Positions 7,550 through 9,806 of a stretch of 64,000 bases of DNA are shown here, piece after piece (within the stretch, counting starts at the first letter, position 1; the number at the start of each line of letters is the position of its first letter). The stretch is from the NCBI GenBank assembly GCA_021731085.1, contig JAKFYB010000003.1, positions 124,001 to 188,000 of the forward strand, given 5' to 3'. The notes below the pieces were generated by a model that worked only from the letters and a program-made list of their open reading frames with translations, was not told the DNA's origin and made no database searches. This stretch comes from Dehalococcoidia bacterium (GTDB lineage Bacteria > Chloroflexota > Dehalococcoidia > DSTF01 > JACRBR01). Made by a program: the position numbers and the translations under genes.

Positions 7550-8641
7550 CTACGGGGTTTCGATCATTTCCTTCAGCGTCGGCACCATGTGCGCCTCGCG
7601 ACCCCGGTATGCAGCGGCTTCGAGCGCACCGATGTAGCGCTTGAACTGGCGCTGGCGGAGGTCCTTGAGCGCTTCCTTGCCGGCCGCGACGGTGTCGCCG
7701 CTGGCGAGGATGACGGCTTCGCGGAAGGGCTTGTCGCGCTTGAGGTCGGCGGCGAGCATGACTTCGCCGCGGTCGAGCCACGTGCGGATGTTTCGGCGCT
7801 TCTGCTCGCCCGCCTGCAGGCCGTAGTAGCGTAGGTGCTCGACACCGTAGACGAGGTGGCGGCGAAGATCGTTCGCTGTATTTTCGAACAGTTGGCGATC
7901 GGCCTGCGAACGCGCGAGCTTTTCTTGCCCGAACTCACACAGCCCTAGAAGGAACGTCGTCCGGATGATGTTGTTGTAGATCACGAACTCGGTGAACTTG
8001 AATGACGCGAAAACCGTGCGGTTAAAGAACCCCGGAGACTGCACACCGAGCCCACCGCCGTTCGCGAGCGCGCGCTTGCGGAACGCCTCGACGTGGCGTG
8101 CGTGGTCGAATGACTGCGTTGCGAGGTAGAGCTTCACTTCGTGGAAGCCGTACGAGATGTACTGCAGCCAGCCGAGCAGCACCGCGTTCGAGTTGTACGC
8201 CTGCTCCGAGATGTTCGAATATATCTGGTCGAGGGAGGCTTCGACGTGCTCTGCCAGTGGCTCGATGCCGCTCCAAGAGATCTCCGTCGCGGGCTTCCAC
8301 TGCTCGCGGATAGCGGCTTCGTACAGTTCGGCGCAGCTCTCCGCCCAGACGTCCAGCTTGTCGTAGATGGTGTAGGGTGCGGGCAGGCCGCGGTCGCGCG
8401 CGGGGACGGCGCCGCGCGGCGTGTCATTCTCGTACGGCCAGATGTCCGGCGCGAGGCCGTACGAGCCGTAGTCGGCCATGGCGAGCGTGAAGCCTTCGGG
8501 CCCGAGTTCACGGACGCGCGGCGGGCGCTCGGTCGCGGCGTTCATCCACTTGAGGTCGGGCGCGGGCGGGGCGATGACGCCGGGGATTTGCGGGCGCTGT
8601 GGCGCTTCGGCTGGCGCTGCTGGTGCGTCGTTCTCGGCCAT
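7550..8641 (-). CDS. Ferritin-like fold protein lacking the diiron ligands (paralog of the upstream gene)
   Basis: This 363-residue all-helical protein aligns along its length with the product of 8724-9806. Where the paralog has the metal-binding E-A-R-H and E-S-R-H, this one has H180-A-R-H183 and L259-R-R-H262. The helix glutamates E137 and E215 of the paralog align with Ala and Thr. So all four carboxylate ligands seem lost while both His remain. The surrounding A-F-R-K-R-A-L and N-D-L-R-R-H-L-V-Y-G-V-E-H-L-R-Y-Y are well kept, which argues against decay. A Pro/Ala-rich N-terminal tail (~30 residues) is present. It follows its paralog by 82 bp with a good GAGAGGA site, so it may be a non-catalytic partner subunit, as in beta subunits of soluble diiron monooxygenases. 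This role is inference. Confidence 0.7.
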   Translation of the reverse strand: MAENDAPAAPAEAPQRPQIPGVIAPPAPDLKWMNAATERPPRVRELGPEGFTLAMADYGSYGLAPDIWPYENDTPRGAVPARDRGLPAPYTIYDKLDVWAESCAELYEAAIREQWKPATEISWSGIEPLAEHVEASLDQIYSNISEQAYNSNAVLLGWLQYISYGFHEVKLYLATQSFDHARHVEAFRKRALANGGGLGVQSPGFFNRTVFASFKFTEFVIYNNIIRTTFLLGLCEFGQEKLARSQADRQLFENTANDLRRHLVYGVEHLRYYGLQAGEQKRRNIRTWLDRGEVMLAADLKRDKPFREAVILASGDTVAAGKEALKDLRQRQFKRYIGALEAAAYRGREAHMVPTLKEMIETP

Positions 8642-8723
8642 GGTCGTTTCCTCTCACGCGCTTGCTGCTGAAACAAAGGCACGCATCTCAGCGTGCCCCT
8701 GTCGTTTGTTGATCCCTGCTGTC

Positions 8724-9806
8724 CTAGTTCTTCGACGGGTCGAGGAGCATCTGCATCATTGGGTGCATCTTCTGACGACGGTCACCGAGACCGACGACGT
8801 CGAGACGGTGCATGTACTCGTTGACCTGGCGCTTGCGGATCGCCATGAGCTTCATGTAGCCCTCGTTGATCTGCGCCTCCGTGCTGCCGCCACCGAGGAG
8901 AATGGCGAGCGCTTCGGTGGTCTCGCCTCCGCCGGTGAGGCCAGCCTGCGCAGAGCCTGCGCCGAGAAGGCCTTCCATGCGGTCGAGGTAGCAATGGATT
9001 TCGTCGCGGCGCTCGGGCTCGGTTTCCATGACGTACTTCATGTGCATGACGCCGAAGGCCACGTGGCGGCTCTCGTCCTGCGCGGCGAGCCTGAACATGC
9101 GCTTGTCGACTTCGGTCTGGGCGAACATCTCGCCCATACGGAAGAGCGACTGCACGAACCCTTCGCCGACGAGGTGCAGTGTCGATGCCATTTCTGTGAA
9201 GTCCTGCGCAGTGAGCAAGTTAACGGCGCCCGGTCCCGCTTGCAGGAGGCCGATGCCGTTTACGAGCGCGCGCTTGCGGAACACGTCTAGGTGTCGCGCT
9301 TCGTCCATGATCTGCGACGCGAGGAAGAGTCCTACTTCGAAGAACTCACCACTGACGTTCGGCGCGTACTGGCCGGGGACGTCGCCGGCGATGAACTCGA
9401 CCTGCGTAAGGAATGTGCAGAGCTGCGACATTGCGTACTCGAGATCTTCCGGAAGGTCCGGCAGCTCCGCCCACGGCACGTCGGTCGCGCTCGACCACTG
9501 GCGTTGCACTGCTTCTTCATAAAGAAGCATCGCTGACTGAGACCATGACGACGATCGGAACGGCCACATTTGTTGTGTCTGCTGTGCGTCGCCGCGGGGA
9601 GCTGCGCCGCGCATGCGTCCGCTCTGGTTGCGTGACTGCATGGGGATGTCGCCGTAGGTGCCGGTGGAGATTTCCTCCAGCGTCAGGCCGCGCTTGCCGG
9701 GAGCGATGCGCAGGCCGCGCTCGGCCGCGGGTGCGTCCAACCAGGAAAGATCGAGGTCTTCACCTTCGCTGCGGAGTTCCGCGAGCATCTCTTGACTGAC
9801 GGCCAT
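8724..9806 (-). CDS. Ferritin-like diiron protein (R2-like / diiron oxygenase family)
   Basis: This 360-residue helical protein has a complete set of likely dinuclear metal ligands: E137 (Q-V-E-F-I-A), E169-A-R-H172, E215 (L-V-G-E-G-F) and E245-S-R-H248. This E, ExxH, E, ExxH pattern is that of ribonucleotide reductase R2, R2-like ligand-binding oxidases and related diiron oxygenases. It is not a nucleotide reductase beta chain that I can recognise, and no nrdA lies nearby. Start ATG has AAGGAGG 7 nt upstream. It is the first gene of a pair with 7550-8641. The substrate is unknown. The C-terminal G-G-G-E-T-T and H-P-M-M-Q-M segments are unassigned. Confidence 0.75.
   Translation of the reverse strand: MAVSQEMLAELRSEGEDLDLSWLDAPAAERGLRIAPGKRGLTLEEISTGTYGDIPMQSRNQSGRMRGAAPRGDAQQTQQMWPFRSSSWSQSAMLLYEEAVQRQWSSATDVPWAELPDLPEDLEYAMSQLCTFLTQVEFIAGDVPGQYAPNVSGEFFEVGLFLASQIMDEARHLDVFRKRALVNGIGLLQAGPGAVNLLTAQDFTEMASTLHLVGEGFVQSLFRMGEMFAQTEVDKRMFRLAAQDESRHVAFGVMHMKYVMETEPERRDEIHCYLDRMEGLLGAGSAQAGLTGGGETTEALAILLGGGSTEAQINEGYMKLMAIRKRQVNEYMHRLDVVGLGDRRQKMHPMMQMLLDPSKN

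Follow-up and report, generated by a model that had tools for sequence, protein, structure and literature searches.

The window, a 64,000-nucleotide stretch of a Dehalococcoidia bacterium genome (contig JAKFYB010000003.1, positions 124,001 to 188,000), carries on its minus strand two neighbouring paralogous genes, termed here A and B. Gene A (8724..9806), which has the higher coordinates and is therefore the upstream member of the pair, encodes a 360 aa dimetal-carboxylate protein with a predicted R2 fold and is the proposed catalytic subunit on the basis of its reading frame, the ligands conserved in its homologues, an AlphaFold2 model and Foldseek matches. Gene B (7550..8641) follows after a gap of 82 bp and encodes a 363 aa degenerate paralogue, the proposed metal-free structural subunit on the basis of its reading frame, its identity to A, its substitutions and the purifying selection seen in its relatives. 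An original prediction made from the letters of the sequence alone held that the two proteins align over most of their length, as they do (30% identity over 344 columns, E = 8e-45 by BLASTP), and the site residues that it listed proved exact in both. Alignment and model secondary structure place E137, E169xxH172, E215 and E245xxH248 of A (codons within 9063..9398, minus strand) as the full six-ligand set of a dimetal-carboxylate site of R2 type, and alignment to A places A148, H180xxH183, T228 and L259xxH262 of B (codons within 7856..8200, minus strand) in the same columns. RNA folding predicts a 13-bp GC-rich hairpin in the intergenic gap (8672..8703, minus strand), and the A–B gaps of five other loci also contain strong GC-rich hairpins of unlike sequence; such hairpins might tune the A : B expression ratio. 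The surrounding genes (lysA for diaminopimelate decarboxylase, a D-2-hydroxyacid dehydrogenase gene, tsaB and ndk downstream of B, and AddA/AddB-like genes upstream of A) were dropped as clues to a pathway because they do not lie beside A and B in other genomes.

The AlphaFold2 model of A, obtained with 33 homologues (pLDDT 83, pTM 0.79), sets the ligands on helices 120–150, 153–181, 203–223 and 232–262. Its closest structures in the PDB, as found by Foldseek, are R2lox (E 8e-4, probability 1.00) and RNR R2, with TM scores normalised to the target of about 0.5–0.64, and methane monooxygenase hydroxylase ranks lower. An R2 fold combined with four Glu/Asp and two His was found in A only. Sequence profiles for R2, R2lox, VlmB, DUF455 and AurF all matched A below threshold: Ribonuc_red_sm gave 14.1 bits against a cut-off of 33.6, and no match to B in the same profile search, and the NCBIfam R2lox models gave 32.5 bits against a cut-off of 194. 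R2 proteins other than those of class Ic bear their radical on a Tyr at the fourth position beyond the first ligand His; in A-type proteins this position is an invariant Phe (F176). Likewise, the Tyr of the Val–Tyr ether in R2lox, which we take to lie five residues before the third Glu, corresponds to L210 in A. PF02332 (Methane/Phenol/Alkene hydroxylase) recognised a remote 264-aa solo homologue but none of the A and B members, and the PaaA/PaaC family was absent from the Pfam matches of all A and B members. AurF-type PF11583 gave weak matches below its cut-off in 6 of 33 A members (best E 0.003) and 29.1 bits against a cut-off of 29.6 in a remote solo homologue, and the best match in the window's own genome to the MmoB/DmpM coupling protein (PF02406) had E = 0.8, also below cut-off. 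The A and B families are without a Pfam model, and membership in SDIMO, RNR R2, R2lox or PaaA/PaaC was dropped, since profile scores were under cut-off or nil. The likeness to SDIMO alpha/beta or R2–R2' pairs drawn in the original prediction thus survives for the paired arrangement, in which homologous catalytic and ligand-less subunits are encoded together as in SDIMO, and fails for class membership at the profile level.

The asymmetry of the pair extends across the family. Across 186 distinct aligned sequences, the set E/E/H/E/E/H was complete in 110/110 full-length A-type and 0/74 B-type homologues, and the ligand loss in the window's B is therefore not a matter of chance. In no sampled B homologue had the Glu ligands moved elsewhere, and the B positions that carry substitutions fall, in the alignment, on the four helices that form the site in A, so that neither of the two outcomes by which the prediction had proposed to be judged wrong was found. 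All 68 distinct linked A–B pairs are co-directional with A upstream. An A gene adjoins 64 of the 72 long B genes, B always being downstream and co-directional, and the other eight form a single unlinked group that always adjoins a third gene, C, described below; constant adjacency, which had been raised together with constant asymmetry, is consequently broken in these eight. A FastTree phylogeny groups 71 B proteins in one clade (support 1.0), and the grouping of A beside it, with solo ligand-complete homologues as outgroup, is weakly supported. B is ancient and essentially of single origin, with 71 proteins in its main clade. One divergent pair falls outside both groupings on a long branch, and may therefore reflect a second, independent loss of the metal site; it belongs to an A–B–C operon (L167:9092-12060, plus strand) whose B reads QYHNTH at the site. 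Median dN/dS was 0.05 for A and 0.11 for B over 38 close, mutually non-independent comparisons, and B is therefore under purifying selection and not a decaying gene. Pairwise distances in A and B are correlated (r = 0.90, part of which is shared ancestry), B having evolved about 1.35 times faster. These data bear out the idea of B as a conserved, intact, non-catalytic-looking partner that keeps the same order beside A whenever linked, as in alpha/beta pairs. Tandem A genes were seen at two loci, one of them with two A genes followed by one B (L094:5776-9979; the other is G463 contig C6:23951-26281), which suggests that one B may serve two A paralogues.

The B family preserves a clear record of how a dimetal site was dismantled, with Glu giving way to an apparent Asp/Lys ion pair. 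Nearly every B has replaced all four Glu, and likewise H211, invariant in A and one helical turn before E215, and the packing residues F138, A140, M167 and S246. His is kept at the H172 position in 46/71 and at the H248 position in 52/71 B proteins, and the three His of the window's B are no family feature, His occurring at the 180 position in 4/71. The prediction that just the carboxylates had gone is thus right for the window's B and wrong for the family, other members of which have lost His, H211 and site-packing residues as well. Among B proteins with Asp at the 215 position, 27/29 have Lys or Arg at the 245 position, the two residues probably forming an ion pair that substitutes for the metal, and another group has Lys at the positions of both H172 and E215; from these substitutions we infer that charged groups fill the former metal site. 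The acidic columns conserved in the site helices of B (E134, E168, D179, E185, E218, D248 and D258, B numbering) are those common to A, so that B shows no sign of another conserved metal site. The suggestion that B might be differently metallated found no support, because no B-specific conserved cluster of D, E, H or C was seen on the site helices of the 71 B proteins and many B lineages place Lys or Arg in the site.

Beyond the original prediction, the wider search added a third component, C, and extra unlinked A and B paralogues. Clustering of neighbouring reading frames, which is noisy owing to antisense frames, singled out only C, a protein of about 145 aa encoded directly downstream and always co-directionally: after the unlinked B in 8/8 cases, after many A–B pairs and after solo A in three outgroup loci. 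Luciferase-like monooxygenases, which we did not count, recur near the loci with no fixed strand or distance. Among 294 genomes of the window's class, A was found in 97 and C in 96 (both in 93, A only in 4, C only in 3, neither in 194); the corresponding Fisher value of 2e-67 overstates independence, related genomes being counted many times, and the exceptions are mostly incomplete genomes. A and C co-vary even inside the patchy families f3 and f5, and in families f23 and f36 C is present mostly elsewhere in the genome. No C is linked to the window pair; the one C of this genome is on contig C7 (40759-41193), beside an unlinked B, and contig C13 carries a second A, also unlinked. The unlinked B (L040:8237-9913, minus strand) has at its N terminus two short helical-looking repeats (GWPDDLLQQALAAGASPDQLISYMDRGISAEQARQVM and a second copy), similar to an N-terminal module of three solo A homologues, and a frame for a TetR-type regulator lies just upstream of unlinked A genes at eight loci in several genomes. 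The model of C is of high confidence (pLDDT 95, pTM 0.90) and its seven best PDB matches are all SCP2 folds, including UbiJ (probability 0.92–0.99, with E values of only 0.014–0.042). Evidence from sequence for SCP2 is weak: PF02036 matched 1/28 members below its cut-off (E = 0.18), and hhalign probability was 62% against a subset of local SCP2 proteins and 22% against all of them. We are nevertheless confident, from the model, that C has an SCP2 fold.

The A alignment used as a query of named genomes found homologues, whereas B alone matched nothing. Nearly all of the named homologues are from Chloroflexi, Chloroflexota or Dehalococcoidia records, including Tepidiforma; the scan confirmed 306 relatives, and of the best 80 none comes clearly from outside Chloroflexota. 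A homologue was present in 19 of 400 sampled genomes of the window's phylum, roughly one in three sampled Dehalococcoidia genomes has A, and plasmids contained no homologue. COX1 accompanies A in 90 of 97 genomes, the remaining seven all being less than 90% complete, and Tepidiforma is strictly aerobic (PMC10284905). Four remote ligand-complete solo homologues (L163, L165, L166 and L175) adjoin genes of sulfur type, with SsuA/SsuC-like sulfonate transporter genes near L175, a gene for an SsuE-like FMN reductase near L163 and one for a FadE16/SfnB-like acyl-CoA dehydrogenase near L166, and a weak TusA-like domain lies at the N terminus of both L163 and L166; to judge from these neighbours, the solo outgroup may act on organosulfur compounds.

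Our preferred reading, to which we assign a probability of roughly 0.6, is that of a dimetal oxygenase with A as its catalytic part, B as a structural subunit free of metal and C as the carrier of a hydrophobic substrate. A and B would together make up a dimetal-carboxylate enzyme (Fe/Fe or Mn/Fe) of an undescribed family, an oxygenase that would use O2 and occurs in aerobic Dehalococcoidia as well as in some other Chloroflexota. A would carry the cofactor on four helices and perform the chemistry, and B would keep the fold, with lysines, hydrophobic packing or an ion pair where the metal had been, and most likely stabilise A and shape the entry face for substrate or electrons. C, the third component, would probably bring a lipid, isoprenoid or acyl substrate, and in the present genome the sole C, beside the second B on contig C7, would be common to the pairs. 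We infer a physical A–B complex, activation of O2, a hydrophobic substrate and the sharing of C. O2 use is proposed because of the dimetal site, the presence of COX1 in most A-bearing genomes and the strictly aerobic Tepidiforma, the carrier role of C because of its modelled SCP2 fold, the match to UbiJ and the analogy with COQ7–COQ9, and the structural role of B because of the analogy with PaaC. B is not needed universally, since A and C occur without it in outgroup loci. Counting against this explanation, the window pair itself lies apart from C, and neither a ferredoxin nor a reductase, such as the dedicated NADH reductase expected of an SDIMO operon, is conserved among the genes neighbouring A and B. 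A bolder version, to which we would give somewhat less than even odds, is that of a class of multicomponent dimetal oxygenase that evolved separately, in which A would act together with its metal-free twin B and receive a water-insoluble substrate from the SCP2-fold carrier C, several A paralogues of one cell drawing on a single C and in some cases on a single unlinked B.

The structural matches allow a different function for the same site, namely that of an oxidase of R2 or R2lox type, ligand-binding or radical-generating, in which A would form a stable cofactor or protein radical without hydroxylating a released substrate and B would be an R2'-like assembly partner that helps to load metal into A. 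The nearest folds and best sequence matches of A are indeed R2 and R2lox, and yeast provides a precedent in the degenerate R2 protein Rnr4, which helps to load metal into Rnr2. However, the scores of A lie far under the cut-offs of these families, the positions taken as those of the radical and ether-forming Tyr have F176 and L210, no nrdA-like gene is a neighbour, and we know of no role for an SCP2 partner in RNR, so that we regard this explanation as unlikely. Slightly less probable again is an iron-handling, peroxide- or O2-scavenging ferritin-like pair, linked to C only indirectly as two traits of an aerobic lifestyle. The modelled four-helix ferritin-like fold and the distribution in COX1-bearing genomes would suit such a pair, but C adjoins A or B in many lineages, including directly after solo A, COX1 occurs in 80 genomes without A whereas C does so in only 3, and the R2-like architecture and 360-aa length are unlike ferritin or rubrerythrin. 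That B is a separate pseudoenzyme and no subunit of A, binding a hydrophobic ligand or C by itself, would fit the eight genomes, this one among them, in which an unlinked B directly precedes C, but is the least probable reading given the constant order, co-direction and correlated divergence of B beside A in 64 of 72 cases and the presence of an unlinked A in this same genome.

The proposed A–B–C oxygenase resembles several known systems. Like the alpha and beta subunits of bacterial multicomponent monooxygenases, A and B are a four-Glu/two-His catalytic subunit and a homologous ligand-less subunit encoded together, with a ferritin-like fold and a small extra protein (about 140 aa); unlike them, they lack a match to Phenol_Hydrox (PF02332), an MmoB-family protein over cut-off in the genome and an adjacent reductase, the small partner has an SCP2 fold, and A and B are of equal size. 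In phenylacetyl-CoA epoxidase, the catalytic PaaA and structural PaaC form a heterodimer and share one fold at only 17% identity (PMC4498308). A and B likewise would pair a catalytic with a structural subunit of the same fold, but their identity is 30%, neither matches a PaaA/PaaC family in Pfam, genes resembling PaaB or PaaE are absent from the neighbourhood and the third protein has an SCP2 fold. The pair would work like multicomponent-monooxygenase alpha/beta or PaaA/PaaC, yet it fails the profile tests of each. R2lox and RNR R2 share the ligand set of A and are its closest folds, but A is far under their family cut-offs, is without the radical and ether-forming Tyr and in most loci is paired with a ligand-less copy. 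For C, the SCP2 domain of UbiJ binds ubiquinone intermediates in the aerobic ubiquinone complex, with its O2-dependent hydroxylases (PMC6747719), and COQ9 increases the activity of the diiron hydroxylase COQ7 (PMC7615680). UbiJ is, as C probably is from its model and by analogy, a lipid-binding accessory protein for O2-dependent hydroxylases. However, UbiJ serves flavin hydroxylases, COQ9 is not known to have an SCP2 fold, and neither system includes a degenerate hydroxylase paralogue. Among open-licence papers we found no description of a diiron–SCP2 combination, which the present system, if correctly interpreted, would add, and the genes are carried by cultured Tepidiforma, so that their function can be tested. 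A and B would then be a further case of a dimetal enzyme that has a metal-free copy of itself as its partner, apart from SDIMO alpha/beta, PaaA/PaaC and Rnr2/Rnr4.
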